This document shows positions 7,695 through 45,138 of a stretch of DNA of 48,925 nt, in pieces. The position numbers and the translations under genes are program-made. Position 1 is the first letter of the stretch. Each line of letters opens with the position of its first letter. Under the pieces are notes generated by a model. It did not search any database and had not been told where the DNA came from. It saw nothing but the letters and a program-made list of their open reading frames with translations. The DNA is taken from contig FN649755.1 of NCBI GenBank assembly GCA_000310025.1, positions 1,701,872 through 1,750,796 on the forward strand, in the 5' to 3' direction. This DNA comes from Ectocarpus siliculosus (taxonomy: Eukaryota > Sar > Phaeophyceae > Ectocarpales > Ectocarpaceae).

Positions 7695-8893
7695 TCAGAT
7701 AAACTGGCCCCGAGGGGTCCGCAAGTCAATAGAAATTCGGGTGTATTTACATGTATGGACCACCTCCCCACGCAAACTCTCTTGGCGTGCAAGGTGCTGC
7801 AGTGACGTACCGTGCTCATTCGCAATAACCCGCGTGGGGGCTCCCTACAGAGTATCGAATCGAACCCGTGGAATTCTTGACCTGAAAACGCCCTCACCGA
7901 CGCAAAGGCAAATAGGCACCAATCGAATTCCAACTCTCTTGAAGTCCCAAAGTAGTGCTCGCTGTAGTGTTCAACCCCCGATGCCATCGCGCGTCTTCGA
8001 CTAACCCTGATGTGCATGCCGCCTCTCATTCATCCAAGCACTTACGGCACGAGATAGCCGAGCGTACGCGGCGCTGTCAAGCTTGCCGAAAATCTGGTGG
8101 ACTCCGAACAGGAGCGCAAGCATCTGTGGGGGGAGTCGGAGCACCATAACGCACCACGCCGCCGAAATCGAAATGAGCTCGGTTCTTGGTGACGACACGG
8201 CAACTTGAGCTTGTTCGACTGGCGGCCATCGACGCATCCTGCCGCTTGGTTTTGTTTCGAAGGCACGCAGCGGCAGCAGCATTAGGCCCAATGACGCAGC
8301 AAAAACAAAATGTGAACGGTACATCTGTCCCACAAGACGTTGCGTAGCAGCGTGGGTAAAGCTCCCTCACCAGAAATATGACCGCGAACTGAGCCGGGTG
8401 CGGTAGGTCGTTCCACGTGCACATGACGCCAGACGGAAACTCAACCAGCCCTGCTCGGCAGCAACGTCGCGGGCGAGTAGGAGGAACCAAAAACCCTTTG
8501 CGCGTGACACCCCTCCGCTAGCCTACAAGACACACGCTAGGAGCCCCGCACATTCGTGCTGACGCGCCATTAGTTACGAGTCGCGGATAATACCTCTTCC
8601 GACAGGCTCATTGGCACGACAGGCTTATTGGCACACGAAATTGTAGCAGCACTAGATATCATGTACCACGCACATGTAATTGTAACAGCACTCGATATCA
8701 TGTACCATGAAAGTGTTCCCGGTGGGCTATCGCGGGGATCATAAGCAGGACGGACACATCGTTCCGAATTTGGACGCCATTTGGCAGAAGTTCGCAACAA
8801 CGCCCCGTAAACATGGGTGTTGGCCACTTACTGTTACTTTCCACGATGCCGACGATCATGGCTGACATCGCGGTCGCCACCAGGAGGTGAGAC
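7695..8893 (-). CDS. Gene A: small two-helix membrane protein, four exons seen, first exon missing
   Basis: Minus-strand exons are 8893-8832, 8450-8371, 8123-8046 and 7796-7695. Donors are GTAAGT, GTGAGG and GTAAGT; acceptors are GGTAG, GAGCAG, CCCCCCACAG and CTGCAG. Exon phases join without a stop (2 to 1, 1 to 0, 0 to 0, then TGA). The first exon seen encodes a hydrophobic stretch (SHLLVATAMSAMIVGIVESN). The second carries PSGVMCTWNDLPH and ends in QFAVIFL, which joins MLALLFGVHQIF of the third to form a second membrane helix. The fourth is a hydrophilic tail ending RTPRGQFI. An initiating exon ending in phase 2 must lie above 8893 and was not identified. The second exon matches one in gene B at 16 of 26 residues, including the donor position. 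The function is unknown. The last exon is the least certain. Confidence 0.5.
8606..8709. repeat. Short tandem duplications inside gene A intron
   Basis: AGGCTCATTGGCACGACAGG / AGGCTTATTGGCACACG and, separately, TTGTAGCAGCACTAGATATC / TTGTAACAGCACTCGATATC plus ATGTACCA are each present twice, about 20 and 38 bp apart. Confidence 0.6.
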
Positions 8894-9637
8894 CTACCGC
8901 AGTTGCGTACATTGGCAACGGAGCAGAGGGAGCAGGGCAATCTCACTTGAAACGAGCATCACAGGGTGGTTGGTCCCTACGCGTACACAAGCAGGCACGA
9001 AATACCGATCAAAAGAAAACGACAGCCGCATGACTGGATTGTTGCCCTTGATAGCTCCAAAACCGCTCGTCTCCTGGGGCACCAATGTGGGGCGTGTGTT
9101 CCGCGGGTGAGTCCACGTGTCCCTGCCCTGGTTGCAGAGGCGATGGATAAATTCGTTGCTGTGACACACGGCCGTCCTCACGTATGCGACCATACACTCG
9201 CAACCATGCACACCGGGTCGAACACGTATGGGAGCCCTGAATATTTTGTTTTCCCGTCCTCAAGACATTGGCCTCCTCGCAACAGGAACACGCTTACGAG
9301 GGCGTCGTGATTCTACGTCCACGCTGCTATTTAGAAAAGAGAAACGCTCGTCAAGTCACCCCCAACACCGCCAGTCAATCACGCGTTGCTCAGCTTCTCT
9401 CCCAAACACCACATCAGGGCCTGCAGACCAAGAAAAACGACGCCAAACGCTGTGGAACGACCAACTCGGCAAGCAGTATCAGCTCCAAGTTGCGCCATCG
9501 ACCCCACTCAACGCTTCCTCAAGCTCCCATCATAGAACCGAGTATTTTACAGAAGTTTCAAGTGGAATAAGGTGATGGTCAGATAGGATGCCAGGTCGTT
9601 CGTGGGTCGCTCCCGTCCTTCGGATCGCGTTTGGTCA
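8894..9637. other. No gene recognised
   Basis: This stretch should hold the 5' end of gene A if the model is right, but no ATG exon with a convincing phase-2 donor was found. Confidence 0.4.
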
Positions 9638-9867
9638 TACACTAGGTTGCACAAGATATAACACCCCCCGGACAGATGTTCGAAGCTCGATTTCTCGGCA
9701 GGAAAAAGTAGTGGCGGTGCCGAAAATGGCCGGAGGCGTTGGAACCGTCTCGTCGAGAGATTTCCGAAAACTTTTCCTTTGATTTCGGCATCCTCTTCGT
9801 CGTGGAGTAATCGAGCTTTGAAAGTCGATCCGGGGGGTGTGGTTTCTTACGTATGAAACCTACGGTA
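9638..9867. mobile_element. Short inverted-repeat element, TACCGTA family, copy a
   Basis: About 230 bp. The left end reads TACACTAGGTTGCACAAGAT then ATAACACCCCCCGGAC; the right end has the inverted form GGGGGGTGTGG to TACGGTA at 9861-9867. The middle carries CCGTCTCGTCGAG and GCATCCTCTTC, shared with copies at 29.8, 37.9 and 45.8 kb. It has no coding capacity, so it is a MITE-like non-autonomous element. Confidence 0.7.
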
Positions 9868-10384
9868 TGCAGTGTACCAACCTTCTTCGTAGTCCGGGAC
9901 GTCGCTTTCGGGCCTTTCGCGTCTTGCTCTTGCTGATCATCTCCGAAGCCCGACGTTCACGATGAGTAGTAACAGCCGATGGAGGGAAAAAGCCTTGCCA
10001 ACCTATCGAAAGGAGGCACCAGTAGCAGTAGTCCGTGATGTGGGCTGTTGGTGGTACCGATCATTTCTTGAGGAGAAAGTAAAGGTCCGAAGGCTGTGCG
10101 TGCTATTACGGGATTAGAGTACAAGGATCTGAACGGTAGTTCTAGGGGAGGGTTGACAGGCTATGGCTAGAGCTTAGACCCCCTGGGGGGGGAAATTGTC
10201 ACGGGGGTAAACGTTAAAGACCCCCCCTGCAAGGGGGCCCCCCCCCCCCCCCCCCTGTTTAGTTCACCAAAGAGAGAAAGGCAGCAAACAACGAGCATTG
10301 CTACTAGAAGAGAAGATTATCAACGAGTAATCATCCATCGGGGTCTTCAAGGAAAGACACGTGTAACCCTCACACCCAATCAGT
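9868..10384. other. No gene; G and C homopolymer tracts at 10180-10256
   Basis: CCCCCTGGGGGGGG is followed by a C-run of about 17 interrupted by AAGGGGG. These could be a real homopolymer-rich repeat or poor consensus sequence. Confidence 0.4.
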
Positions 10385-10792
10385 GTGCCGCGCTGCAAGC
10401 AGCCTCGCGCTGGCGTTTCAGAACGACCCTTTCCGTTCTTCGACTCCCGCCATGTAAGTTTCGAGGGGTGCTGGCTGGTCTGCGCGAACCATGCTCCTAC
10501 TACATGCTCGTTTCAACTCCTGGTCAAAGGCTGTGCGTGTGGAAGATCAGTTCAGGCCAACACCACGACTGCGCTGATCGGTGAAAGTCTAGCGGACCAC
10601 GTCAGGCAATGCCTACTCTCAGCCACGGAAACAGGAAAAGTAATGCAGCACGCTCGCATTTCAAATGTTTTGACGCCATTGCCAATGACGGACGCTTTGC
10701 AGGCACCACTTACACGCTTGATCCAGCCATGTTTCAGCCCTCCGGCCGCTGTTTGGTTTTCTTGGGAGCAAAGAGAAAGAGTGCGAAACTGA
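10385..10792 (+). CDS. Unsupported open frame, possible exon
   Basis: A 135-codon plus-strand frame with GTG, not ATG, at its left edge. CGCCAT followed by GTAAGTTTC at 10446-10455 looks like a donor inside it, so only the first part might be an exon. The composition is unremarkable and no motif is recognised. Frames of this length arise by chance in this window. It is listed because nothing else is in the stretch. Confidence 0.15.
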   Translation: MPRCKQPRAGVSERPFPFFDSRHVSFEGCWLVCANHAPTTCSFQLLVKGCACGRSVQANTTTALIGESLADHVRQCLLSATETGKVMQHARISNVLTPLPMTDALQAPLTRLIQPCFSPPAAVWFSWEQRERVRN

Positions 10793-10866
10793 GCGCACCC
10801 GAACCGTGACAAAAACTAAAAACTACCTCGACAACCAACCGTCGAGTCATTCGGCAAAGGGGGGAG

Positions 10867-11944
10867 TTGGTACACATCATCCGTGGTGCTGTGTTGAACC
10901 AAAAAAACACAAGGGGTGCTTGCGAGACACGAAGACCATTTCGCTCGCCTACTTCATTCTTGCTATCACCCACCACACGAAATAGGTCAGTACAGGGAGA
11001 TCCTTGTTGCCAATCTGAGATTGTGAGAACCACACGACAACTTCAACTGAAGAACGCCGGCCGACACAACTACCCGTCGAAACGGACACCGTACGCATGC
11101 CTATTTCATGCGAAAACACAACTAGACTCGTTCTACTTTATGCCTCTCTGTGCACCCCAGGACTTAGGCATACTCCGAAGTTGTTCCGTAGGAGATTCCT
11201 TGTTTGTCCACGTCTACGGCGTATCGCGGGGTACATCCACTGCTGTACGTGCTCCAAGGAAACTGATGTATACGGACGTGACCGAAGCGTCAAGTTTTCG
11301 AAGCACGTCGCAAGCAGCACGCCAGAAAAGAGCGCCTTGTGTGTTCGGTTTTGTCGGGTGTGTGTCGTCGAAAACTACGGCGCTTGCTATACATACATTG
11401 GTCTAGGCCGGTGCGAGCCGAACACGAAAACAACACTGCAACCGAGGTGCGATGTGTCAGTTTGGTTGTCGATCGCGCACAGGTCAACACCGGTGAAGCA
11501 CGTGGCGGCTCCACTCACCACACTCTCAGATCACACCACACGGACACACGAGCAACCCCATGGAAGAACCAGAGCCGACGTCCGAAACTGCGTGCGTGCG
11601 TGCGTGCGTGTGCTGTGTGTTGCGTGCAGAGTCCGTGGAGGCGGGGAGAAGGCGGGCAAGAGGCGGGGATGTCGGGGCGTTGCGGGGCTGAGCTGGGGGC
11701 GGGTAATTTGCTGTGTCCGAATGGCAACAACGGTTCAGACCATTTTCAACGGTTCACCACCGGGTTCAGAATACTTTTCGCTGCCCCTATGCCCTATGTG
11801 TTCATACTACACTGCGATGCTGTACGCTTCCAAAATAAAATGATACGTGATGAGAAGGCCTCGAGTAGCAGAGTGAGGACCGGCGTTGAAGAGGCAGAAA
11901 GAGTGCCACAGCAGCAGCCCCGTCTCTGGGGAGTAGCGCGTTGA
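10867..11944 (+). other. Overlapping long open frames on the plus strand (up to 248 codons)
   Basis: Three plus-strand frames stay open for long distances: 10867-11406, 11097-11843 and 11339-11944. The 248-codon frame begins with ATG but shows no domain, signal peptide or repeat and is Cys- and Arg-rich. The frame at 11339-11944 keeps weak residue-level similarity (GGSTH and KNQS blocks) with the duplicate at 3.4-3.8 kb. One of these may be an exon; I cannot tell which. Confidence 0.25.
11330..11680. repeat. Diverged segmental duplicate, copy 2 (pair with 3440-3800)
   Basis: See the first copy for the shared ordered blocks. This copy has a GTGC microsatellite at about 11580-11615, where the other copy is GT-rich. 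Confidence 0.5.
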
Positions 11945-12403
11945 CAACTTCCGGGGTACTCGGTGTAAGTATAAATAAAGTGTTCGGTGTTCGGTCGGTT
12001 GATTCCATTTTCAGCATCATGTGTCGGTGTGACGAGCCACCCACCACGAACAACATTCTTTTGGCTTCGTTGTCGAACATCGCACACCGATAGAAGAGTG
12101 TTCGCGTGTTCGCTGTGTCCGAAGGCGCCGAAGGGCCGAAAGAGGCACACCTTCCACCGCAAGCACGTCACGTCGTCACACACGCCGACCGCCCTTGGAC
12201 TGCTGTAGCGCTTGATCCAACCTACGCGATTGGTTGTCTTGTGTCAGTAGCCGATGTCTCCAGGTTTTTCTCCCAGTTGGTGGGTGTCTGCCCCCACCCT
12301 GCTGATACGTGTGCGTCGGACGCGGTGCACACGCGATTTTTTCGCTGTGGGCACGTGTGCCAGTGTGCCAGTAACTGCTGCCTGCTGGTTGACGATTTTT
12401 TTT

Positions 12404-12500
12404 TTTTTTCTTCTTAGTATGACACAACGAAACCATCTCTATCATAGAAAAAGAGTCTGAGACAGATTAGCAATGGATTCACACAATAGCGTCAGAAAGT
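12404..12500 (-). repeat. Dispersed repeat R, copy 1
   Basis: Minus-strand order is a TCTGACGCTATTG-like block, AATCCATTGCTAATCT, ACTCTTTTTCT, GATAGAGATGGTTTCGTTG. Shared with 12862-12982 and 44297-44420. A T-run of 13 (12388-12400) lies just beside it. Confidence 0.65.
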
Positions 12501-12861
12501 ACCTAATTTTGCACCGCTTCAATTTAGCGCTCGTGATATTATTTACATAGAGCATTTTGGTTCAGAAAACGAAACCACCCGTTTCGGCGCACAGGCGGAG
12601 CAAATAATATCGTCATCCAGCGGTCCCGCCGTCCCGCCTGCTGGCGTTGTAAAAGTGGTACTTCATCGCTTGTGCGCGCACACACAGGCGACATGAAAGA
12701 TACAGATATCGACTGCAGAGATGGGGCGAGTCTTGCCTTAAGGCCGTCGACGTGCGGGTTTCAAAGCCAGGTATGTCCGGGGGGTAACATCCCATCAGCA
12801 TCCACGAACTGCAAACACGCGAGAGACAGAGGTGAAGACTACAAGAACCATCAGCATCCAC

Positions 12862-12982
12862 AGACACACCGCAACGAATCCATCCATCTCTATCTAAGAA
12901 AAAGAGTTTAAGATAGATTAGCAATGAATCCACAGCGTCAGCGAAAATTCTGTTTTCCCACGATTTCCCGAGCAGCTGCTGT
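12862..12982 (-). repeat. Dispersed repeat R, copy 2
   Basis: Longest pairing is with the third copy: GCTGCTCGGGAAAT, TTTTCGCTGACGCT, GATTCATTGCTAATCT, AAACTCTTTTTCTTAGAT and AGAGATGGAT on the minus strand. It overlaps the end of a 185-codon minus-strand frame (12613-13170), so that frame is at least partly repeat. Confidence 0.65.
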
Positions 12983-13446
12983 GTCGCACGCGAGGTAGAC
13001 GACGGCACCATGACTCCTTCATAGCGTATTACAAGGGCAGTTGGTTGCAGTGCCGGCCCGCTGACAAGCATGATGTGCATAACACGAAGTCGAGGCTCAG
13101 GATTTTTTACTACGATAATGAGTAGGGCCGCCGTCCTCTCGTAGGCTGCTGCGTCAGAGGAGAGCGGCATATCGCCGTCCGACCTCCGGGGCTCCCCCCC
13201 GTGATCCCTTATGCATGTCTAGCCAAAGGGCAGAACGCCTCCTCCTCTCCGTCGGTTTCGTGCTCAGTACTTTCAATCACGGCCCTGCAGAACCTGCAAT
13301 GTCTGTGTAAGCCGGCAAGGTTCGAGATCCGTGCCTGTTGTATCCAGAGTACCGGACAGAGTGCCCGTCGGGTTGGTGTGTACCGAGATGTTGATTGTTG
13401 CGTTGTAGGGGGCGGAGGGATGATGCGTTAGAGAAAATCGCCTATT
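12983..13446. other. No gene recognised
   Basis: A minus-strand frame with AAAYERTAALLIIVV-like sequence runs through 12983-13170 but has no start or splice sites I can support. Confidence 0.35.
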
Positions 13447-13830
13447 TTACACTCCCCTAGTACTCTTCTTCATCGTGATGGGTGGAACCAGCCGCGGGTC
13501 GCCCAGTCTCCTGCGAAGCGCTCCACAGGCCTCTACAAAGTGTAAGAGTTTCAACGACAAGCAAAGCTGTTCCACATCTATCTCGCGCCGCGAAAAGTCC
13601 GCCTCAGGTACATACCACTGCCGGATGGAACAACAAGCGGTCCGTGGGCAGCGAGAGTGGGGGTTCGGCCTCGAGACGAACACATCTCGCGGAATAATCC
13701 GAACGCACTCACCTTTAGGAGGCCTGGTTAAGCTAGGAGCTTTGGAGCTTTGGAGAGCAGCTCGCTTTTTGTCAGATGCAACGACGACTTGGAAATAACC
13801 AGCTGGAAACAACAACTCTGTGGGTGGTTG
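13447..13830 (-). CDS. Hypothetical frame overlapping the gene at 13.7-14.5 kb, possible 3' exon
   Basis: Minus-strand frame ending at 13447 with no membrane segment. It runs through a strong donor-like GTGAGTGCG at 13703. Its last part (EQLCLSLKLLHF, then GALRRRLGDPRLVPP) looks protein-like, and a possible acceptor ATCCGGCAG precedes TGGTATGTACC. It overlaps the neighbouring model in another frame between 13728 and 13830, so at most one of the two is right there. It could be an alternative 3' end of the same gene. Confidence 0.25.
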   Translation of the reverse strand, partial: QPPTELLFPAGYFQVVVASDKKRAALQSSKAPSLTRPPKGECVRIIPRDVFVSRPNPHSRCPRTACCSIRQWYVPEADFSRREIDVEQLCLSLKLLHFVEACGALRRRLGDPRLVPPITMKKSTRGV

Positions 13831-14495
13831 CGGCAGCGGAAGCAGCACATGAGGAGTGGGCTAGTGCTAGCGTGCAGAGCGAAATGCGTCGTCACTCCTC
13901 CTCCTGCGATACGTACTCCCAAGACCTGAAAAATAAAAAACAAATAAAACAATAACACAACCATTTCAAACAAAAACACAGCCAATTAAAAATGATACCT
14001 TTATCCGATTCTATTGAACGTCTATCTATGAAGATGCTTGGGCTCCCGAATGCTCTCTTTCAAGGCCAAGTAGGTCTCCGAGTTGCCGATACGCACGACC
14101 GCTGGACCGCCGCTTGCCGCGGGCGGTCATCGACTGCGTCCGCCATTCATTCGCGACGCGAGCGCTCGTCCACCGAGTCACAGGCGTTTGCAAAGGAACT
14201 CTTCCATTTTATCTCATGAAGTATCCATTTTTCGTGTGGAGTATCGGCACGGGAAGGGTGCATTCAACGAGCTCCCATTGATCCAACCGCTCGTCGGAAG
14301 CCGAACTACAAGGCATCCAAGACGAACCACTTGAAACTTACCGCAAAAATACAATCGGTATTATCATAACCAGCACCGTAGATCACCCTCGCATCTCCGC
14401 GGAAAGCCCGAGGGTTGCGCGTCGTCTGCGTCTGCTTTCGACAGTCAAGCCAACCCCACTCGCCGCTGGGGGTGTTTTGAAGGGACAGCATCCCA
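13728..14495 (-). CDS. Small Cys-containing protein, last two exons, 5' end missing
   Basis: Minus-strand exons 14495-14342 and 13925-13728. The first has a strong acceptor (CTCTCTGCTTTTCAG) and donor (GCG, then GTAAGTTTC), enters in phase 2 and leaves in phase 0. Only this frame is open. It encodes NTPSGEWGWLDCR and ends YDNTDCIFA. The second exon has a long T-rich acceptor (TTTTATTTTTCAG), continues in phase 0 and stops after 65 codons, with a Cys-rich block (MCCFRCRNHPQSCCF). The PSG then W-D pattern recalls exon 3 of genes A and B, but the entry phase differs and I do not place it in that family. An upstream exon ending in phase 2 is required. The function is unknown. Confidence 0.4.
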
Positions 14496-14683
14496 CTGAA
14501 AAGCAGAGAGAGACCCTGCGCATCATCACATGACGTGGCACCGCTCTGCCCTAAGCATTGCCTCCACGCGCCCCCCTGGCGTTTAAACGGGGGAGCCCTT
14601 CGTGCGATTGCTTTTGTAGTTAAAAGGAGGTTGAGGCTGAGGTAGCGCTTCCCTACATCGGCCCTCAGCATCCATAAAGAAAG

Positions 14684-25010: not shown

Positions 25011-25527
25011 GTGAGGCGAAAGCCACTTTCCATAATTTACCATTCGTTCGCCTTCCGTGGATGGATGCAAACGACACCAAACTCCCGGGCCTTCAAATAC
25101 TTTCTATACTGTGGCAAGGCCACAAACGTACGGGCTTTCGACTACTCCATATACTGCAGCAAGGCCACAAGTGACGACTGTACCACCTCCTATCTGGAGG
25201 ATTTTGCGGCAGCAGCAATGAAACTACTGCTGGGCGGGAACTCCAAGTCCCTCATCGACAATTTCAGTCTCTGGATGAGGATGAACAAGCTGCTGCTGCT
25301 GGTGGTGGCCCAAGGGCGAAACACCACGACCATGACCAGAACACTGGGGTTTTCCCGTATCGCCAGAAGACGCGCACCGCCGCTCCTGTAGGCGCGGCTT
25401 CGTCTCTGGCGGTGGTTTAGGGATTCCGGGAGCGTCGTGGAGCTTCCTCTCGTGCAATAACGCTGCCGTGGCGCAGGACAAGCGAGTGGACACAGCCTCG
25501 TCGGCCTTGTCGAAGAGCCGATTCACC
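25011..25527. other. No gene recognised
   Basis: Short duplication of GGCAAGGCCACAA / GCAAGGCCACAAG at 25112 and 25161. Open frames overlap on both strands. Confidence 0.35.
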
Positions 25528-25765
25528 CCGTACAGGAGCACCACCATCTGCGTGATTCGGGAATATTAAAGGCAAACAAGTTTTTTTTGTAATGGCACAA
25601 GCGCAGGAGCATCACCACCTGCGTGATTCGGGAATATTAGAGGCAAACAAGTTTTTTTGTAATGGCACAAGCGCAGGAGCATCGCCACCTGCGTGTGGAG
25701 AGAGCGAAGAAGTTTGGGATATTGTAGCACAGGTACAGGAACATCACCGCGTGCGGGGAAAAAGC
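25528..25765. repeat. Tandem array, about 80-bp unit, three to four copies
   Basis: CAGGAGCACCACCATCTGCG, ATTCGGGAATATTA, AGGCAAACAAGTTTTTTT and GTAATGGCACAAGCG repeat almost exactly twice, then decay into two weaker copies (CAGGAGCATCGCCACCTGCG, CAGGAACATCACCGCGTGCG). Confidence 0.85.
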
Positions 25766-26452: not shown

Positions 26453-28018
26453 CATAACTATGGCCACGAACTGGACAAGGTGCGGAAGGTTGTTCCACGT
26501 GCACCTGAAGCCCGACGGAAGCTCAACCAGCACTGCACGGCACGGATCAAAAACGGCAGCAGCTAGCGGCAGCAGCGACAACGCCACGGGCGAAGGAGGA
26601 AACGCGTTGTTACACCAGCTTAACGCCCGAACAATAAAACCGATGATTTGATCTACAGCAGTGGCTCCCGCTACAATGCCGGTTGATGCCCTGTACAATG
26701 ACGGTGAAGTCGCTCTGGCACAGATGGAATATTCAAGTGTTTTCGTAACGTGAATAATAACGATTGCACGCTAGAATGCCGATTCAAGAGACTGGCACCT
26801 ATCGGCAGTATACGGGGACCACTAGTTTACTGTGAAGTAGATCTCAGGGGGGCAGGGTACGCCTCAAAGGATACCTGAATCAATTGCGGAGCCCCCTCCC
26901 ATTGCTCCGCGACCTACAGCACCACGCGGTTCTCACTGCTGCCAAGTTTTGCTAACCACACAAGTGCAAAAAAAGAGGCTGTGTTGGTTCGGTGACAAGG
27001 GGGGCACGCAGAAAAAACGTCTCATGAATTCCAATTTGGCGTGTTTACGCACCGGACAAATATATACTTTTCCTTCAGTTTTTCTCCACCGTCCGTGTGC
27101 AAAGAAGTGTGTAAAAGTATGATATTGTGTGGGTGTTGGATCGGTATCGTGGGTGACAAGTCAAACGAAGTGAATGAAACACGCTCTACACACTGAGAGC
27201 AAACCACATTGTGATCCACTCAAACGGTCACTCCCTGCATTGCTACATACATGCATAGTGCTTAACGGTGGAGGGACTATTCTTACCGCACGCGGCAGTC
27301 TCAGGTGACCAAGCCCCTCAAATGGCATCCTACAATTTCTCTTCTCCCTAGTATTACACTGAAACGGCTGCTGCAATCGGTCCTCTCCTCTCCCCCACCA
27401 CCTTCGAAAGAACGGTGTGTGTGTGCAGGAAAAGACAACACTGTTTCCCAGCTCCTCCAGCTGGAAAACCACTCGAAGCCTTCTATCTGTGCACCTCGTT
27501 CCTTGTCACACTCTGCGGTGTTGCGCTGTCTCTAGTCCTCGCAAGGCTCTCTCTGTGAACACCTCTATTCTTTGGCAAGACTCTCTGTGTGAACACCTGC
27601 TCTAGCTTCCACAGACGGAGTGTTCCAGGTGCAGGTTCCTCTCGCGTTCTCCCCCTGGGGGGCCCTGTATTTCCGTTACCATCTTCCTCATACTATACCC
27701 AAACACCAACATAACGATTCGAATGCATAAATATAAGGCTTGGTGTACACTCGTTTTCGTTTAATCCTCCCGCAAAAAATCTCTTCCGTCTGATGCTCTG
27801 CTGGTCGCACGTATGTTGCATGTACAGCATATCCACTACGCCACAAGTCAAGCGCTGATCGACTTGTAGCTTAGTGGATATGCTGCAGTCTACAGCACAG
27901 GCTACCACAATATTTAGACTCACCCTCAATGCTCGCGCTTTCCACGGTGTCCAAAATGATGGCTACGATCAAGGCCAGGGCCACCAGCCTAGCGACACGG
28001 CGACCGCCATGAGAACCG
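26453..28018 (-). CDS. Gene B: paralogue of gene A, two exons seen
   Basis: Minus-strand exons 28018-27924 and 26532-26453. The first has acceptor CTGCCCACAAAATCAG and donor GAGG then GTGAGTCT, enters in phase 2, leaves in phase 1 and encodes basic GSHGGRRVAR followed by the hydrophobic LVALALIVAIILDTVE. The second has acceptor CCGTGCAG and donor ATG then GTAAGC, enters in phase 1, leaves in phase 0 and encodes LVELPSGFRCTWNNLPH then LVQFVAIVM. Its 26 residues share 16 with gene A, the exon is the same length (80 nt), and both donors fall at the same codon. The exon corresponding to gene A's second helix was not found. A frame after TTTGTCCAG (KARRIFKHPNRNARN, 26228 downward) fits the phase but is not similar, so the gene may be truncated. 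The intron holds a MITE at 26656-26832. Confidence 0.45.
26656..26832. mobile_element. Short inverted-repeat element inside gene B intron
   Basis: 177 bp. Left CAGCAGTGGCTCCCGCTACA then ATGCCGGTTGATGCC; right, inverted, CAGTAAACTAGTGGTCCCCG then TATACTGCCGATAGGTGCC. The left flank is TA and the right TG. Same family as the element at 44802-44979. Confidence 0.65.
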
Positions 28019-28963: not shown

Positions 28964-29795
28964 TTCCTGAGTCACGGCAAACGATTAGGTCCCGCATAGA
29001 CACGGCTACCTCTGAATGTGAAGCCCCGAAACATATTTTCGGGGATCGCGAGAATACAAGAGAAAGCAACGCGCTCAACATGGGCTCTCAGGCCATCTTC
29101 TCCGTGTCCTGAGACAGCGGTCACCAACTCCCCTTTCGCGCAGATTGTGCAGTTGTTTGCTCTCGGCGAAACAAGTGATGAAGAGTCAAACACGAGCTTT
29201 CGTCTACACCTCTCGTCTCTCGACAACTCTCGACGAAAAAAAGGCGAAACATAGATCATGATGATGAACATATGTAGATCATGATGACGAACATTCCCGC
29301 GTCCGCCTGTCTCTCATACGCAACGCCTCAGTGTGCGCAGGAGTCGTCTCGCGGACAGAAAAGAAAGGCGAAACAAACGTGTTGACGGTCATTGGCCACC
29401 GTCGTCTCCCTCTCATGCATGCAGTATGCGCAAACGTCCTTTCGGAACGAAAGGCTGGCCCTTTCGACGAAAAGGTTATCTCAGAAGTAAATAAATGTGG
29501 CACCTCTATACCTCCTCTGCCTTACCTTAGCCCAGCCGCCCTGTTCCCGCATATCTCCTCCTCCTTCCGTGGCATTATTTTTCCGTCCCACGAGCGGCCA
29601 CCTTTGCCTGTGCTGGTGAAACGGGAAATGGACCCAGCGTCGCGGCCCATCGACACTTCAGGACCAAACACGGGCACGCACATCGTTCCCTGGCTCGACT
29701 CCGACTGGTACTTGATCGGTCCACCTGGCGCGAGGGGGCAGCAGGTGTTGTAGTTTTAGGTCGGTGGTCGGGCCACACGCGAACGAATGAATGGG
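28964..29795. other. No gene recognised
   Basis: Contains a short tandem duplicate ATAGATCATGATGATGAACA / TAGATCATGATGACGAACAT at 29252-29291. No supported coding exon. Confidence 0.4.
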
Positions 29796-35702: not shown

Positions 35703-38700
35703 ATGACGACTGCTGCCCACCAGTCCGCAACCACCGCCTTGGCCTTGGCCGCTGCCCTGGCCCATTTCGCGAGGTATGTATGTGGGTGCGCGCTTGATCG
35801 TGAGATGCCAACCATACGCCTCCTCCGTCGCCGTCGCAGCTTGTGTTTGAGGGTGGCAGACAACGATGTCATCGTGATGCTGACGGCGTGCCTGTCAGAA
35901 AGACTAAATACCCATTCGAGGCATTGTACCACACAGCAGTGCCTCTTTCAACCATATGGCAGAAAGCTTTCGGCTTCGTTTTCTACGCCTGGGCCTCAAC
36001 ATCTGGCCAAGACGTGCCGAGCGCCCGATTTAGAGTCGGAATGGGAGGGGGGGGGGGGGGCTTCCATGAGCGCGGAGCCCAAGTTCGTGAGGTGCATCGC
36101 GAGACTGACCTTTGATTGTTGCAACGATTCGGAGCGTTTGGCGGGTTGATGTGCGTTCGTTCCCGCTAAGGGGCTACGGACGGTAGTCTGCAGAAGGGGC
36201 GAGTGGGGGGGCGTACTCTACGTTTCCATGCCTTCGCGGCTGCATAGACCATTGACCAAAGGGGGGGGAGCGGGGGGGGTGAATCGTGTGCCAGCACTGC
36301 TGCTGTTGACATTTTTCTCTCCCTCTCCGACCCCTTAATCCCGCCCTTGCTGCACTTGTTCTTCTACAGTAGTGGCGGCAGTGTCAGCCTTGGGCACAAC
36401 AAGACCGCGCTTGTTGTGTGCATGGCAGCGTTGTTGGTTGGGGGAGCTTGGGCCGATTCAAGCCCGGCAATGGCGGCAACCGCTGACGACCTCGTCATCG
36501 GTAAGGCCAACCTCGCGCGACACCCACCACGCAGTTTTACCGATGCTACACGTTTTTTTATACCTCAATAGTTTCCTGCTTTTTTCAAAATCGCGCGAAC
36601 GGAATGAAGAGACTTGCCATTTTTCAAATCTTGCCTGAATTGTGCGTGGCCGCCCAGCGTAATCGGCCGGTACGCCGGCTTGTGTTGTGCTCTGGTTTCC
36701 ACGGAACCTCTTGAACAGAAACACCCGCTCTCCCTGCCCCATTTGACCTACCGTTGCTTAACGCCTGAACACGTGTTGAGCGTGCCTTGTTAAGACTGAG
36801 CGGTGGTGCGTTTCCAGCTCCCTTTCATGTTGCAATGTTTGGCGCTATCGTAGCTTCAGCATTAGCCAGCTTAACGTGGTTCAAATATTGCCAATGCTGT
36901 CGCTGTTTCATGTCGTAGATCAATTTCCGTCGTGTTTTTGATCTCGTAGATCCAGAACACAGCCCTGGCTGAGCGTTTTCACCTTGCACCTGGCTCAACC
37001 CCTGATTTGTTGTGCTGTTACCTATGACCGCGATGATGATGCTTTCCAGGGGAGGAGGCTTGCAGCAGCCGCTGGGACGCCAACTGTGACGGAGACACGA
37101 TGGACGAGGTTCTGTTCTGGCTGGTCTTATGGATATGGAGAGGCTACAAACTCTACGCGGTGAGCATTCTCACTCGCGTTGTTCTGACAGCTGGTGCTCT
37201 ACAGCACGTGCCCGCACTTATGAACGTCTAACCGTAGGTGACACAAGATACCCCCCCCCCCCCCCAGTCTCCGGTGTTTGCCATCGGGGTTTGGGTTTTC
37301 GTCGCTTGGCAACGACGTTGTAAAACAAGCCCCCCACTCGGTGTTTTGCCATCGGGATTGGGTTTTCGTCGCTTGGCAACGACGTTGTAAAACAAGCCAA
37401 TTCACTTCGTGAACTCGGCAACCAGGTTACCGTTTTTGTTTTTACCTCGTTTTTTTTTTTGGCGGTAACCATAATGGTGGTCGAGTAGATCATGTTGTGC
37501 GGGGTCGAGAAACCTCACTCCGCGCAACGGGGGATGATCGCACCACGTTGTGTTAAAATGGTCAAGCTTCCTCGAGGCAGTTACACAGTGCTCACAACTG
37601 TCTCTGGAAGTGAAAGCACCAGAAAATAAATTAAGTCATACGTAGCTGTCATCCGTACGCAAGGAAGTAAGCACAAGATGCCGAACACCCTTAGCAGGAT
37701 GCAGCTCACCCTTCATGCGACTCGCCAAATACCTCACGGCGCTTCGCGCTTGGTGATGTGAGAGCCTGGTCCGGTGAGAACCCGGCGTGCTCCGTCCCGG
37801 CTTTGTAGGGATGCGAGGTCAATGGTCAAACGACTACGGCATCCACGACTACGAGTACACCCCCCCCCCCCCCCCCGTGGGCCGCGTTTCAAAGGTCGAT
37901 CTGTCCCACGGGACAAGCGTTGAAGCGCCGCGAACGGCGGCATTGAAGCCGTCTCGTCGAGCGCTTTCTGAAAACGTATCTGATCATTTATGCATCCTCT
38001 TCATCGTTGGGCGTTCGGGCTTTGAACACGGGTCCAGGGGGCGTGGTATCTTGTGTCATTCCGCCTACGGTAGCTTTGGCCGAGGCTGGGGTTCTAACCG
38101 TATTCCTAGGGTAATGCTGCCAATGGTCGCTATATGGGGTTTAGTGTGAGGGGTCTTATCCGAGCTAAAAAAAATGGTGCTCAATTTCGGAAATTTTGAG
38201 TTTTTTGGAGGCTCAATTTCTCAACTCCTGGGTTCCGACTGTAGGCGTTCTGTACGCGTTGTTTCTCACGACCTCGTGGTGTATTTTTTGTTTGCTCTTG
38301 CAACATCTCCGTAAGAAGACAGGACTCGTCGCCCCAAACGAAGGTTGATGCTTGCCTTTGCCGATTTTTTTTAAGCGGCGCCATCTCTACGACCTCGTCA
38401 TGCGTTCGCCTTCGCTACTCTTCTAGTAGAAAGAGAGAATCGTCGCCATTTCCACGAAGAAGAAGGTTGATGCTGCTTGCCTGTAATGTTGCCGAGGTGT
38501 CGTGCGTAGCATTTGAAGTGTCGGGGAATGTTGCACGCGTGTTGTCCCATCATACCACGACCTCGTCGCGTAATAGACGTCGACACGTTATTGCCTTCGC
38601 AGCTCTGTAGCAGACGGGTTCGTCGCCATGAAACGAAAGTAGTGTGATGCTTTGACGTTCCGTAGCAGTGTCAGGCGTGTTCGCATGTTTTTTTGTTTTT

Positions 38701-39336
38701 TTTTTACGATGCCGTCCTGGCTGGTGTGGTACTCGCCTCCTTCGTAACAACATGCAAGCGTGATGAAATCCAGATTCGTTCGCCATTGGTTGCCTTCCTT
38801 CTTCCGCGGAGCCCCCTTTTTTGACAAAGGTATCGATTGACAACCGTCCCAGTTTTCATTTCTCCGGCATGGGGAAAAAACCATGCCTGCTCTCGCCAAC
38901 AATACGTACACAACAATAATAACCCGGCGGAGAAATAATAGCAGTAAGATTGCAGCTAGCCCTCCCTTATTCCGTCGTCCACCGCCCACCCACGCTGCCC
39001 GCACATTTTCCCCGACGGCCGGCCCCGATCGTTTGCTCCAAGTGCGCGCGGAGCGTGCGGGCTGCGGCTGTGTGGCTGACAGGAACAGCCTTCTTCATCG
39101 ATGCGAGGAGAAGAGCGTCGTCGTTTCTCCTTCGCAGGGGGGGGGCGGCTTTGCGGGCAGCAGCTCGCATGCCGCCACTTGGTGGCCTGGGAGGGGGCGG
39201 TGGCGTTGCCGTCCCCCCCATCATGCGGAACTTGGAGGAAAAGGAGGACGATGTTGAGCTTGCCGTCATCTCGCCGCGGTCGCCGGTAGCGGCGGCGGCG
39301 GTGGCGGAGCAGCATCCGCTTCCTTTGCCGCAGTGA
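35703..39336 (+). CDS. Gene C: complete four-exon, two-helix membrane protein, about 201 residues
   Basis: Exons 35703-35773, 36370-36500, 37050-37159 and 39043-39336 total 606 nt, exactly 201 codons plus TGA. Donors are GTATGT, GTAAGG and GTGAGC; acceptors are TTCTTCTACAG, GCTTTCCAG and GCTCCAAG; phases 2, 1 and 0. Exon 1 starts at ATG with hydrophobic ALALAAALAHFA. Exon 2 carries a second hydrophobic stretch (TALVVCMAALLVGGAWA) with a signal-like end (SSPAMAA). Exon 3 has EEACSSRWDANCDGDTMDE then an aromatic helix start (FWLVLWIW). Exon 4 continues with RAAAVWLTGTAFFIDARRRA, a Gly-rich linker and an acidic then Ala/Pro tail ending HPLPLPQ. Exons 2-4 match gene D in order and phase. The 1.9-kb third intron is full of repeats. 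Two hydrophobic N-terminal segments could be a bipartite targeting signal or a membrane helix. The function is unknown. Confidence 0.6.
37225..37268. mobile_element. Left-end fragment of a TACCGTA-family element
   Basis: AACCGTAGGTGACACAAGAT then ACCCCCCCC matches the left end of the 45.8-kb copy. No right end follows. It lies in gene C intron 3. Confidence 0.55.
37272..37398. repeat. Tandem duplication, 67-bp period
   Basis: CGGTGTTTGCCATCGGGGTT and TTCGTCGCTTGGCAACGACG then TTGTAAAACAAGCC occur twice, nearly identical. Confidence 0.9.
37788..37877 (+). mobile_element. tRNA-like short repeat with poly-C end, copy 1
   Basis: TGCTCCGTCCCGG, GGGATGCGAGGTCAATGGTC, AAACGACTACGG, CACGACTACGAGTAC and a run of C. 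GGTCAATGGTC then AACGAC resembles a tRNA D-arm / A-box region. Other copies are at 44455-44532 and 48.5-48.7 kb. Confidence 0.55.
37878..38072. mobile_element. TACCGTA-family element, copy c, left end truncated
   Basis: GCCGTCTCGTCGAGCG, GCATCCTCTTCATCGT, GGGTCCAGGGGGCGTGGTAT, CTTGTGTCAT and TACGGTA (38066-38072). The left end directly follows the poly-C of the tRNA-like repeat. Confidence 0.65.
38250..38680. repeat. Diverged tandem repeat, about three units of 120-165 bp
   Basis: ACGACCTCGT, TTCGC(C/A)TTCGC-like, GT(A/C)G(A/C)AGACAGG or equivalent, TCGTCGCC, GAAGGTTGATGCTTGCC recur near 38270-38375, 38390-38490 and 38557-38670, inside gene C intron 3. Confidence 0.55.
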
Positions 39337-39436
39337 TCGTCAGCCGGGCGCCGTCACCGCCGCCGCCGCCGCTGCCGCCGCTGCCGCCGGCGACCACGTC
39401 CGGCGCGTCCCCGTGTTGGCGGATTAGAAAACGTGT

Positions 39437-39760
39437 CCATGAGTACAGGATGGGAGGGGATGGCACAGCTAGCCGTGCTGACGCGGTGGAAACGTGCCTA
39501 TAGGGATGTTATATAGTACAGGATTGGCGACGATAGCACAGCTAGCCATGTTGACCGGTGGAAACGTGCCGCCTATATTGATATTTGTTATTACAGTAGT
39601 ACAGGATGGACGAGGATATTGTAGCACAGCTTGCTCAGAACGGGCGTCGTGATGATGGGGGGGAAACGTGCTCATGGGGATGCTAATACGGAGTATATAG
39701 GACAGGGATTGGCGAGGATTTCATAGCTACATGCATAGCTCGCCGCGCCGGCAGCCGGGG
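39437..39760. repeat. Tandem array, about 75-90-bp unit, four copies
   Basis: GTACAGGATNGGCGANGATA, GCACAGCTAGCC and GGTGGAAACGTGC recur from 39439, 39513, 39599 and 39700. Starts about 100 bp after the stop of gene C. Confidence 0.8.
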
Positions 39761-40067
39761 GTTGGATGTGACTCCCGAAGTGGGCCATACACAGCGGAAT
39801 GGTTTCTCGTTTTATTTTCACACGAACGTGTTGTTGCCGTGCTGAGTCTTTTGGACGCGGCGCGCATAGTCACACCATTTCGTATCCCATGATGGCTCGT
39901 CCTCTTCACGTCTATTTACCTGATTTTGTACATAGTTTGCTCTTGGTTGAGCGTGCACGTAGCAGTAATGCCGCCGCTTGGGCGAGCGAGAGAGGATGTG
40001 TGTGTGTGTGTGTGTGTTTATACCCTTGACAACGACAGCTTTCAGCTTGTCGTCATTTCCGACAGTC

Positions 40068-40336
40068 ATGGACCGCCTCCCTTCTATAGAAACGTTGAGC
40101 GCTGTTGTTTACCTGCCAGCTGAAATGAGCCAGCTAACAGAATTGGCTGTCGAAGGTCGGTCGACACGGTTACGATGGTTGCTGGTGGAAGGGTAAGGAA
40201 TTTGAAGACGATCAACCACACCTGTCTGTCCGTCTTTCGGAGTTGGGCGTGTGATGATGTCTTGTGCCGCGGGTGCGAACGTTTGCAACAGCAGCCAGTC
40301 GTTCAACGAACATTATTCCGAAGTGAGCGGGCATGA
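40068..40336 (+). CDS. Possible 5' end of a gene, two exons
   Basis: Exon 40068-40192 starts at ATG and ends at GG then GTAAGG; exon 40292-40336 follows GTTTGCAACAG and ends at GTGAGTGCC. Phases agree (2 and 2). The first exon encodes MDRLPSIETLSAVVYLPAEM then SQLTELAVEG and LRWLLVE; the leucine spacing (LPAEMSQLTELAVEG) recalls a degenerate leucine-rich repeat, which is only a suggestion. The second encodes SQSFNEHYSEVSGH. No further exon was identified downstream. The frame also opens upstream of the ATG through a GT microsatellite. Confidence 0.3.
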
Positions 40337-41407
40337 GTGAGTGCCCACTGCACTATCGATCGTTTTGGCTCTCTATGCCAACGACATTTACCTTTGGGTG
40401 GACGAGGTTCCGTGCGGTGCTGATGTAGGCGGATGGTGAACAGACGACGACGAATTACTCGTCGGCAACAAGTACCTGGCAGAGGGAAGTCGTAGGGGTA
40501 AATTTTCATTGAGGCTTTGTCCAGAGTAGGTCAAGGCAGGCAGCAGAGCTACACCGTGTCGCGTACTGCCTTTGGATGCCCCCCCCCCCCCCCTGTGTAG
40601 CTCCCATTCGACTACTAGGATATCAGAACTGGCGTCGACAGGGTAACTGATGAGTAACCAAGGGTCTTTTACAGTAGGAGAGTTTCTTTCGTTTCGTATT
40701 TTTTCTTCAAAAGTCGGCGCTCACAGCACTTGTGCCGCAACGGGGGAGATCAAGAATCATTTGGAGAAACTTTTTGTCTACATGTACCTCGGGATGTACA
40801 TGTACTTCGTATGTGTTCGGGGGATCCTTGTATTTTCGTGAATGAATTCTGTGGGGAATTTTTGTCGTGTTTTCCGAAAGATTTTTTGTTGTTTGTTCGT
40901 TGTTGGCATCGTATTTCATCCCGAGCTGTCTGCTAAAGTTCACGGTTAGAATAGTAGCGCCGAGGACGGTGAGGTTATAAAACAAAATCTTCAAGGAAAC
41001 GAAAGACAGTTTTGGTTTGAGAGCGAAGGGTTGCCTGTCTGTCTTGTCGCAAAACGCTCGCAGGATTTGCCCAAGGGTTTGCATGGCCATACATTGGTGT
41101 TTTTTCCTGTGCCGCTCTACCTCATACTAATAAGTATCAATCATGGTATGGTACTTACCGCCATGCTCCATTACGAGTGCTCGTTGTCAAACACGCTGAC
41201 GTGCTCCTTGTCTTACTTGCCATCATGATATTGGTCTTGCGCATACGCTCGTCGTGCGGACAAGCAAATCAGGGGTTTACCCCGGGACATTGGTACCCCT
41301 ACGCCTACACAACGAGAGATGTAATCTGCGAATGACATGTCATGTTCTCTGGGTACGTACATATTTCACGTCTTGATCGTGATCGATTCAAGCGGGAAAC
41401 GGCCAGG
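40337..41407. other. No gene recognised; poly-C at 40579-40593
   Basis: A 127-codon minus-strand frame (40707-41090) has no start context, domain or splice support. TACATGTACCTCGGGATGTA then CATGTACTTCG is a short repeat at 40779-40810. Confidence 0.4.
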
Positions 41408-41676
41408 CGCACGCTACTTACGCATTCACGGAGCCATCGCCCATGCTACAACGGGCTCTGCCGCCACGAGAAAGTCGACCTACTGTACGAGTGATCCGAT
41501 ACCGGCGCACGCTACTTACTAGTATGCATTCACGGAGCTATCGCCCATGCTACGACTGGGCTCTGCCGCCACGAGAAAATCGACCTACTGCACGAGTGAC
41601 CCGATACCGGCGCACGCTACTTACTAGCATGCCTTCAAGGAGCTATGGCCCATGCTACGACGGGGTCTACTGCCTC
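41408..41676. repeat. Tandem array, about 104-bp unit, 2.6 copies
   Basis: GCGCACGCTACTTAC, TTCACGGAGC, ATCGCCCATGCTAC, GGGCTCTGCCGCCACGAGAA, TCGACCTACTG and CGATACCGG recur with few changes. Confidence 0.9.
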
Positions 41677-42059
41677 CTCCTACCCTATTAGCTACTATTG
41701 ATTATTACCCTTGAACTATCCTCCTCACGTGGATACTTTTTCCCGAGCCACGACACACCTACCCGGTTCGTTGTTCAACCTCGGTATAGATAGGTGCTTC
41801 GAGATCACCTTACGCACCCCCTCCGCCACCTCCTCCCTGCCTGAGTCGCACAGTCTCTTCGACCCTTTCACTCTACCGTGCTACTGCTGCTGACTGCCTG
41901 TACGGTTGATTCCTCGCCTGTAGGTGACTGGCTTCTGTCAATCACAAGGCCCCGGAAGAATCAAACGCTGACAACAATCGGCAAAAAAAAAAGAGGCGAA
42001 AGCAAAAAGCAAAAACCACTACAGTATTCGCCCACACCCCTGCACCCGTTCATTCGGAG

Positions 42060-42305
42060 AGGCTTCACCCAAACACCGCTCGTGTTGAATGAACCTCTAG
42101 CCTTGTTTGCACCGCTGATGCTTCGCACACACTCTGGTCGTGTCCAATCAGCCTCTAGATAGCCTTGTTTGCACCGCTGATAATGCACGAGGCTTCTCCC
42201 ACACTCTGCACTCAATTCAATCGGCGAGGCTTTGCCCACACACTGCACTCAATTAAATCGGCGAGGCTTCGCCTACACACTGCGTGCAATCAACGGAAAC
42301 TCTAG
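42060..42305. repeat. Two interleaved short tandem repeats
   Basis: CCTTGTTTGCACCGCTGAT occurs at 42101 and 42163 with a CCTCTAG prefix. CACTCAATT(C/A)AATCGGCGAG then GCTT(T/C)GCC repeats with a period of about 40 bp to 42270. Confidence 0.8.
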
Positions 42306-42402
42306 CCTTTCTTTATCGCTGCTGCTACCGCTGCACGTCCCGAGCGCATGAAGAAGTACCGCCTCCAAGGCGGTGGGGAATCATATGCGACGAGGTTCCA
42401 CG

Positions 42403-42417
42403 CCCCCCCCCCCCCCC
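42403..42417. repeat. Poly-C tract followed by poly-A
   Basis: Fifteen C, then AG and twelve A (42420-42431). This may be the tail of a dispersed element. Confidence 0.8.
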
Positions 42418-42716
42418 AGAAAAAAAAAAAAGCGCGCCCACCAAAGAACGAAAGTGATCACTCCCGACACCCCGTTCGAGCCGCGCACTGTGCACAAAAT
42501 TCCTACAACAGAAACGAAACGCCGTGTCTTCTCGCGAATGTTGTGCGATGCTCTGCTGCTTCCCCAGCACAGCATGTGCGCCAAGGGAAGGAAGGAAACA
42601 CACCACGATGACAAACGTTCATCAACACAACAAAAAAAAAACAAGAGCGGTACGGCACCGGTGATGGTAGATACGTGCCCCGGCCGGTCCACACCGTCAC
42701 CCATCTCGAGAAACGC

Positions 42717-42899
42717 TCACCACACGATTCGACCCGCACAACAACAACCACACGCCACAGCAGCACCGGCGGTGGCACCTCACGATTCGACGCGCACAAC
42801 AACAATCGCACACGCTACAGCAGCACCGGCAGTGGCAACTCACAATTCGACACGCACAACAACAATCGCACACGCTACAGCAGCACCGGCGGCGGCACC
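42717..42899. repeat. Minisatellite, 60-bp unit, three copies
   Basis: CACGATTCGACGCGCACAAC, AACAATCGCACACGCTACAG and CAGCACCGGCGGTGGCACCT in tandem. It lies just beyond the stop of gene D, so it is in or near its 3' UTR. A plus-strand frame runs through all copies because 60 is a multiple of three. Confidence 0.9.
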
Positions 42900-43088
42900 T
42901 CAATTTCTTCTCACCAACAAGAACCGCCTGAATTGTTCCGCGCCCTTTCCCCCGGTCCCTTGCGGCGCTTTCGATACCACGACGGTCTACACACAATCAC
43001 CCTACCGACCCCCCAAGCACGCACGCAACCGCGACACCACCGCAACCGCGGAGGTGCATCGGAGGTGTGTGCAATCGATGCCGGCGGC

Positions 43089-45138
43089 CTACACCATGTC
43101 CAGCGCGTTGCCCAGGTTGGAGGCGGCGTTGCCAACGTTGGAGACGGCTTCGCTGACGGCAGAGACGGCCTCCGTCAGGTTGGACACCATGCGGTCTAAG
43201 TAGGATAGCGAGCGCAGGAGCACGGGCGGCCGGCCCACCCCGGCGGCGGCGGCGGCGGCGGCGGCGGGTTCGGCCGAGGAACCGGCCACCTCCCCCTCCG
43301 CCGCCGCCGGTACCGCGACAGCATCGTAGGCGGTAGTGTTAGGCACGGCCGTCGAAGGGGTTGCCGCCGTCGCGGACGCCGTAGACGCCGCCGGTTCCTG
43401 AGATGCGGCCACGACAGGGGAAGCGGCGACGACGGTGGTGGTAGCAGCAACGGACGTGTTGGACACCGCGAACGGATACCCCACCGCCTCCGCCTCCGCC
43501 ACCGCCTCCGCCTCCGCCACCGCCTCCGCCTCCGCCTCCGCCTCCGCCTCCGCCTCCGCCTCCGCCTCCGCCGCCGCCTCCGCCTCCGCCGGGCGCACCA
43601 CCACCACCAACTCCAGAGCAGCGTCGCCCACGTTGGAGGCGGCCTCGCCGACGACCATCGCCGTCTCCGTCAGGTTGGACACGATGCGCTCGACGTAGGA
43701 CCGCGCGCGCCGGAGCACCGGCACGGAGGCGGGTTCGGCCGAAGAAGACGTTGCCGATGCCGATGCCGCCGCCTCCTCCCCCGCCGGAGCCGCGGTACCG
43801 GCGGTGTTGGGCGTGGCCGCCGTCGCAGGCGCTGCTGCTACGGGCGCCGTAGATGCCGTAGACGCCGCCGCCGCGGTCGGAGGTGCGGCAATCACCGGGG
43901 CGGCCGTAGCGGCGACGGCGACGGCGACGACGACGGCGTCTGCAGTGGGGATTAAGGGCGAGACCGACGCTCTCGTGCTCCTGCTCCTCCTGGTCCTAGC
44001 CCACATGACGCAGGTCGTTGTCGTGCCTCCGAGCCAGACGGCGGAGATCCAGAGGAACCGGAGCACCTGAAGAGAGCAACCCAAGACACACATCCCCGTT
44101 GAAACGCACGGCGGTTTGTGGCGGTGGTTACGGGAGCAGTAAGAAAGGGCGTGACGGCGGCGCTGGCGGAGGCACTGGCGATGACGACCACGATCACCAG
44201 CCTCCGCAGGCTTTTTGTAGTTAAGAAAACATGTTGGATTAATCATACAATCGGGGAATAGATAGATAGGGTCTGCGTACCCCTTCCCTGTTCTATTTCC
44301 AAATATGACCCAACGAGAACCCATCTCTATCGAAGACAAGAGTCAAAAAGTGATTATCAATGAATTCATAGTGTCAGCGAAGGCTACCTGTATTTCCACC
44401 ATTTCCCGAGCAGCACATGCTTTCAAGAAGGAAAATCCTTCCCCGGGTTGGGGTTGGGGGGTACTCATAGTCGTGCATGCCGTTGTCGTTAGACCATTGA
44501 CCTCGCATCCCTTCAAAGCCGGGACGGAGCACGGGGGGGGGGGTGATACCTCACCTACGCCACCTGCGGTAAACGGTAAGCCAAGACCAAACGAACGGGG
44601 GTACGGCGGCAACCCGTGCTTGATTGCTTACCGTTGTAAGCGCCAGGACGTCCGTGATGACCTCGAACCACGTCCATGTTTTCTCGTCGGTGTCGTCGGA
44701 AAGGCAGTCCGCATCCCCGGGACGGCAAGTCCAACCTCCTGTGGCGACACATCGCGCACAGAAAAAATGAAGCACCCGGCAGCACGCTTAAGGACCTCGT
44801 ACAGTAGTAGCAATAGTAGTGAGGGCGGTTGGAGCCCTGGAAAATGCCGGTCAAGTCGTCTGGCGCTTATGAATATTCGAGCTATTTCGGGCTCTGAATA
44901 ATGCCGGTTGCCCGCTATAATGCCGGCTCGATCGGCTCGATCGCACCACCGGCATTTTGCCGGGACCACTATTTTACCGTAAAACCTGTCCTCACCTGAG
45001 TTGATGCCTTCGATGCTCGAGGTCGTGTTGGTCTGGGTCCCCACGGTTCTCGTCGTCGTGGTGTTGGCAGCCGCAGCCGACCGCACGCCCCCCGCCACGA
45101 GGGTAAGCAGCAGCACGGCCTTGCTTCCGAAGCGGAGG
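43089..45138 (-). CDS. Gene D: paralogue of gene C with a long Ala/Glu-rich repeat tail
   Basis: Minus-strand exons 45138-44996, 44738-44632 and 44066-43089. Donors are GTGAGG and GTAAGC; acceptors are GGCGGCAG, TCGCCACAG and TTGCTCTCTTCAG; phases 2, 1 and 0 as in gene C. A first exon ending in phase 2 is missing. The first exon seen has a hydrophobic KAVLLLTLVAGGVRSAAAAN and a Thr/Asn-rich stretch. The next has GWTCRPGDADCLSDDTDEKT then WTWFEVI. The last completes a helix (LRFLWISAVWLGG), passes a basic stop-transfer (ARTRRSRSTR) and gives about 290 residues of Ala/Thr/Glu-rich sequence with a Glu-Ala run. Two related segments (YVERIVSNLTETAMVVGEAA and YLDRMVSNLTEAVSAVSEAV), each followed by SNVG, sit about 180 residues apart, the second near the C-terminus. 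It is probably a membrane-anchored low-complexity protein. Introns carry a MITE, a tRNA-like repeat and repeat R. Confidence 0.6.
43483..43590. repeat. GGCGGA hexamer repeat encoding Glu-Ala
   Basis: In-frame with gene D, giving alternating Glu and Ala with occasional Val. The hexamer keeps the frame whatever the copy number, so length variation between strains would be tolerated. Confidence 0.9.
44297..44420 (-). repeat. Dispersed repeat R, copy 3
   Basis: GCTGCTCGGGAAATGGTGGA, CTTCGCTGACACTATGAATT, CATTGATAATCA and GATAGAGATGGGTTCTCGTT on the minus strand. It lies in gene D intron 3. Confidence 0.65.
44455..44532 (-). mobile_element. tRNA-like short repeat, copy 2, inside gene D intron 3
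   Basis: On the minus strand: TGCTCCGTCCCGGCTTTG, GGGATGCGAGGTCAATGGTC, TAACGACAACGG, CACGACTATGAGTACCCCCC. Same order as the copy at 37.8 kb. Confidence 0.6.
44802..44979. mobile_element. Short inverted-repeat element inside gene D intron 2, TA flanks
   Basis: 178 bp flanked by TA at 44800-44801 and 44980-44981. The right end inverted reads CGGTAAAATAGTGGTCCCGG then CAAAATGCCGGTGG; the left reads CAGTAGTAGCAATAGTAGTG and has GGAAAATGCCGGT further in. It makes up most of the 257-nt intron. Confidence 0.65.

Follow-up and report, generated by a model that had tools for sequence, protein, structure and literature searches.

Two apparent multigene families, encoding small and probably membrane-bound proteins, interleaved on one contig of Ectocarpus siliculosus

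Four genes with the same exon phases

We analyzed a stretch of 48,925 nucleotides from the brown alga Ectocarpus siliculosus (contig FN649755.1, positions 1,701,872 to 1,750,796), which we call the window. Within our numbering of the genome (189 Mb, 492 contigs), the window is C30:1701872-1750796. It contains four short genes, A, B, C, and D, for which an earlier note on this DNA had proposed a single exon-phase plan. We rebuilt all four in the window with AG and GT at the exon borders, and in every gene the phases are 2 to 1 for exon 1, 1 to 0 for exon 2, and 0 to the stop codon for exon 3, which agrees with the note for the exons that it listed. Judged from genomic sequence, the four genes look real. 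They appear to fall into two multigene families whose products are small and probably membrane-bound: A and B in one (A/B), C and D in the other (C/D). The note listed no positions for single genes, and we pinned them down by comparing the window with itself, by reading the DNA, and by motif and alignment scans. The exons are as follows (positions are those of the window; other copies carry L numbers).

8832..8893, minus strand: gene A exon 1, hydrophobic, phase 2 to 1; aligned with copies L001 and L002
8371..8450, minus strand: gene A exon 2, 80 nucleotides, phase 1 to 0, LVEFPSGVMCTWNDLPHPAQFAVIFL; from genome matches and splice borders
8001..8123, minus strand: gene A exon 3, phase 0 to stop; remainder of the hydrophobic stretch, then the tail
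29526..29683, minus strand: gene B candidate start exon, with ATG, leaving in phase 2; compared with L011 and L014
27924..28018, minus strand: gene B exon 1, hydrophobic, phase 2 to 1; from the rebuilt borders
26453..26532, minus strand: gene B exon 2, 80 nucleotides, phase 1 to 0; from similarity to A and borders
25224..25547, minus strand: gene B exon 3, phase 0 to stop; absent from the B model of the earlier note
36382..36500, plus strand: gene C exon 1, hydrophobic, phase 2 to 1; L018 has a similar exon, by eye
37050..37159, plus strand: gene C exon 2, with Cys, Trp, and Asp, phase 1 to 0; from DNA reading and matches elsewhere
39043..39336, plus strand: gene C exon 3, phase 0 to stop, AAG acceptor; from similarity to other copies
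44996..45138, minus strand: gene D exon 1, hydrophobic, phase 2 to 1; from DNA reading and borders
44632..44738, minus strand: gene D exon 2, GGWTCRPGDADCLSDDTDE.., phase 1 to 0; from DNA reading and copy matches
43089..44066, minus strand: gene D exon 3, phase 0; hydrophobic start and long Ala-rich tail, 325 amino acids in all

The outer edge of D exon 1 (45138) is exactly the end of the range that the earlier note had singled out, which supports our identification of the genes. Exon 3 of C was located by its similarity to other copies (score of 59, versus a background maximum of 37), and the starts of exon 3 in L021-L024 resemble the start of D exon 3.

Because exon 1 is entered in phase 2, a start exon farther upstream is implied, for which we have a candidate only. 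The ATG, the donor, and the frame of the candidate in B (with length changes in multiples of three) are common to L011 and L014. Differences between L011 and L014 in this exon number 6, 8, and 5 by codon position, so third positions are not favored. A search for start exons in other groups gave nothing or very short frames only.

The A/B family

With gene A as the query against the genome, all 36 of the scored candidates were matches (E of 1 or less, best 4e-15), which is above chance. An A/B consensus matched 38 of 39 candidates, and the divergent A/B copy from C9 matched 17 of 17. Every match of these three queries falls in one of 19 modelled loci or in a fragment with stop codons at C30:1121402 (L025), which lies outside the 19 models. 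(Here and below, genome-wide match counts are lower bounds because only the best candidates were scored.) Fifteen of the loci are on C30 (1.09-2.00 Mb), two are on C21, and C235 and C9 have one each.

Exon 2 runs from phase 1 to phase 0 between AG and GT in all 19 loci, including the divergent copy on C9, and is 80 nucleotides long in 17 of them (101 in L016, which has an internal duplication, and 77 in L017). Exon 3 begins in phase 0 after an AG in 19 of 19. For 15 of the 19, B among them, we could draw an exon 1 that has an AG and runs from phase 2 to phase 1, with more than one choice of AG in 9 of the first 14; the scan found none for L004, L005, L008, and L010, and in L004 an exon 1-like peptide lies farther upstream. 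At the start of exon 2 is a segment with one invariant Cys, usually as C.W. That A and B are paralogs, as previously noted, is borne out by exon 2 (55% over 38 amino acids, E = 2e-10).

Exons 2 and 3 of the A/B genes are under purifying selection. The pooled ratio of nonsynonymous to synonymous rates (dN/dS, or omega) is 0.27 over 186 nucleotides (Nei-Gojobori method, nine chosen close pairs), and single-pair values range from 0.11 to 0.84 among the 30 pairs listed. Differences by codon position are 30, 14, and 41. By region, omega is 0.28 before the helix, 0.19 in the helix, and 0.35 in the tail; with so few sites, little weight attaches to the contrast between regions. The dN/dS table comprises 16 loci and leaves out L013, L016, and L017, while the A/B alignment used for profiles (A1) leaves out L016 and includes L004, L005, and B without exon 1.

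As a separate observation, the introns of A (8001-8893) look more diverged from those of L001 and L002 than synonymous sites in exons 2 and 3 do (synonymous divergence of about 0.1). Gene conversion of exons is possible.

The C/D family

This family has nine loci (C, D, and L018-L024); the exon plan, in both families, reaches far past the window. As genome queries, C matched 5 of 6 candidates, D matched 9 of 10, and two queries built from other copies matched 9 of 9 and 8 of 8. Two matches of the D query, C4:120491 (E = 0.18) and C53:140497 (E = 0.68), were discarded as chance. Several of the first links within the family were weak (E of 1e-3 to 0.2), and reading the DNA made them convincing. 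C and D had been described as a clear pair of paralogs. Aligned directly, they score no better than unrelated pieces; they are linked via other copies, through matches that run from C to L019, from L019 to L023, and from L023 to D. The long tails of D and L023 also end alike, by eye.

Most copies have a pattern like C....DA.C.GD..D in exon 2. Among eight copies of this exon, six have AG and GT at the expected place, and in L018 they fit if the exon begins six bases farther upstream. Exon 3 is in phase 0 in C, D, L019, L021, L022, L023, and L024, with an AAG acceptor in C and L019; in L024, exon 3 alone was seen.

Membrane anatomy and charge

In both families, a hydrophobic exon 1 is followed by a short Cys segment at the start of exon 2, then by hydrophobic residues where exon 2 ends and exon 3 begins, and then by a tail, which most copies have in basic form. 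The earlier note had a third exon completing a second membrane helix in A, C, and D. The third exon is present in these genes and in B as well, but hydropathy places the helices differently in A/B and in most C/D copies. The most hydrophobic window of 19 residues spans the exon 2/3 junction in all 17 of the A/B loci tested. Of six C/D proteins, only D has a best window that clearly straddles the junction, and the others have two separate hydrophobic stretches. Exons 2 and 3 of most C/D copies look more like one helix each, so a split second helix is not clearly shared by the two families.

The C/D Cys segment has a net charge of -4 to -9 and the tail that follows it a net charge of +1 to +5, in six of six proteins examined. 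Among the 19 A/B tails, 14 are positive, 2 are zero, and 3 are negative.

Two families with a shared locus history

The note had already observed that A/B and C/D have little sequence in common, and nevertheless placed all four genes in one candidate family. Comparing the A/B and C/D profiles with hhalign gave a probability of 0.2%, that is, no detectable homology, and we therefore treat them as two families. What they have in common is the intron phases, which are the same in A, B, C, D, and other copies, and their location. About 0.93 Mb of C30 (1.07-2.00 Mb) holds 15 of the 19 A/B loci and 8 of the 9 C/D loci, interleaved, and both families also occur together on the small contig C235.

Parts of this region are duplicates of each other. 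C30:1183-1213 kb and C30:1972-2006 kb align in the order A/B (minus strand), C/D (plus), A/B (plus), at 61-71% identity. For the most part, these two blocks of about 30 kb, each with its A/B, C/D, and A/B genes, are collinear copies of one another, which implies that the families spread together. When the open reading frames of the blocks were compared, the matches listed included the exons of the two families, along with many further stretches of similarity that we read as repeats. In phylogenetic trees, A groups with copies at C30:1094 kb and C21:1446 kb (support 99/97), and B groups with copies at C30:1113 kb and C21:1464 kb (96/93). From these groupings, the spacing between A and B (about 17 kb) recurs twice, at 17.6-18.6 kb. 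L009 pairs with L012 (100/99); L003 joins L004 in FastTree only (0.887), and IQ-TREE leaves this pair open. Location and joint duplication tie the two families together, which speaks for a shared history of the locus more than for common descent of the genes.

Searches for known relatives

Neither family has a convincing known relative in the libraries searched (Pfam, PDB, and IMG/VR viral contigs, plus NCBIfam for A/B), which agrees with the earlier note, whose author knew of no described family that fits. In Pfam-A, the best hit among 18 A/B members was E = 0.0065, for one member (CopD), and the best hit among 7 C/D members was E = 0.007, also for one member (FlgE_3rd); in each family, the first member, for which cut-offs were compared, did not reach the gathering cut-off. 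NCBIfam gave E = 0.021 at best, for one of 18 A/B members, with no meaningful score. A search of PDB sequences returned two matches for the A/B profile (A1; E of 1.5 and 1.7) and none up to E = 10 for the C/D profile (A3). A viral origin was considered and rejected: none of the 78 (A/B) and 4 (C/D) stretches that fit our patterns in IMG/VR was upheld by tblastn at E = 1e-3. In literature searches, we recognized no paper that describes either family.

Some known systems are similar in part. The EsV-1-7 family (Pfam PF19114) is expanded in brown algae. It is multi-copy in this genome, like A/B and C/D (at least 150 matches, with 150 of 150 scored among 880 candidates), and it also forms arrays on C30, but its motif differs and PF19114 did not appear in Pfam scans of A/B or C/D. 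The EsV-1-7 matches at C30:1.215-1.234, 2.03-2.05, and 3.19-3.31 Mb lie within, beside, and beyond the cluster. One of seven C/D members matched the membrane proteins of DUF1180/FAM174-like (Pfam PF06679) weakly (E = 0.14), but this score is not meaningful. The candidate immune receptors of the ROCO/LRR type in brown algae are likewise a multigene family in which exon structure matters (PMC11378527); they are GTPases with a ROC-COR tandem, whereas A/B and C/D are small proteins without repeated exons.

Transmembrane gametologues of the brown-algal sex-determining region are also putative membrane proteins and are thought to have a role in recognition (PMC12592211). We liken them to A/B and C/D by description; they are genes of the sex-determining region, whereas A/B and C/D lie mostly on C30, where neither Memo nor HMG-box markers were found. 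Among the ancestral genes of the V sex-determining region, PMC12592211 lists the male determinant MIN and one for a MEMO-like protein, and the title of a reference cited in it connects HMG-box genes with sex determination in brown algae. The sole Memo match in the genome is at C340:214354, and 1 of 11 HMG-box matches is 107 kb away at C340:106974 (weak, E = 9.4e-5). With neither a Memo nor an HMG-box match on C30 (two markers, chosen by family only), we set aside the idea that C30 might be the sex-determining region. The pair on C340 marks a possible sex-determining region.

What the proteins might do

Tentatively, and at well below an even chance, we propose that the products serve as small subunits in membrane complexes, either of the cell surface or of the secretory path, with A/B and C/D proteins acting as partners or in one process. 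Exon 1 would encode a signal peptide or the first membrane helix, the Cys segment would lie outside the cell or in the lumen, and the tail would be cytosolic. The partnership is the least certain step. Clustered, duplicating families of membrane proteins without known relatives are often sites where recognition systems evolve. A more specific version, which we consider quite improbable, is a locus for recognition or signalling, in which A/B and C/D would each supply one kind of subunit to a heteromeric membrane complex, and the duplicated blocks would yield a repertoire of matched pairs. We know of no such repertoire from brown algae.

A number of observations weigh against the proposal of membrane-complex subunits. 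Only location and block duplication connect A/B and C/D as partners; repeat-rich regions can duplicate unrelated neighbors together, and other pieces of the two blocks align out of sequence or in inverted orientation and resemble repeats. In A/B, the residues ahead of the helix are close to neutral, with a net charge of +1 to -2 in 18 loci, and the hydropathy peak of L006 and L007 is only about 1.0. Some copies look decayed: L013 stops early in exon 3, the tails of L015 and L016 differ, and L020 has no AG before exon 2. Differences in exon 1 by codon position (26, 17, and 24) do not show a bias towards third positions; by eye, many of the changes exchange hydrophobic residues among themselves. 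The start exon, which is so far a candidate, decides between a signal peptide and a first or internal helix for exon 1. Finally, the gene models are derived from genomic DNA alone and the topology from simple hydropathy.

The same location and duplication could also arise if two unrelated neighboring families, with no function in common, were multiplied jointly by segmental duplication of a repeat-rich region. We give this somewhat less than an even chance. The block duplicates have diverged non-coding sequence and the region is rich in repeats, which favors this reading; the co-occurrence of the families at several places on C30 and on C235 argues the other way, although block duplication alone would give the same result. 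It is unlikely, in our view, that a single ancestral gene gave rise to both families, which then lost all recognizable similarity except its intron phases and layout. Such an old family would account for the three identical phases and the common genomic cluster, but not readily for the profile comparison, the different Cys patterns, or the different layout of the hydrophobic part in most C/D copies, and if phases are uniform, chance would produce three agreeing phases in about 1 case of 27.

Hardly credible, finally, is that these are parts or passengers of transposons instead of host genes. They are multi-copy and have repeats nearby, but exons 2 and 3 of A/B are under purifying selection, the introns are conserved, and the copies are concentrated on one contig. 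Also, an inverted-repeat element beside A is missing from L001 and L002, which implies that it arrived next to the gene and is not its carrier. Short genes with small exons such as these may readily be overlooked by gene finders, and the exon coordinates of A-D make the genes directly testable.

Repeats and other features of the window

The inverted-repeat element upstream of A belongs to a short repeat that occurs at 9639-9884 and 45778-45990 of the window, with related stretches near 29.9 kb and 38.0 kb; two of three copies tested have inverted arms of 40-44 nucleotides. Upstream of A it takes up 246 bases, where L001 and L002 have 6 bases, and is most simply explained as an insertion in A. 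An Rfam scan of the window gave zero matches. On the plus strand, a long open reading frame at 17-2557 is, by its motifs, presumably a copia-type retrotransposon polyprotein. Among the 40 scored genome hits of the range 7695-45138, 35 match only the first 42-44 bases of that range (7695-7737), a short repeat piece that recurs widely in the genome.

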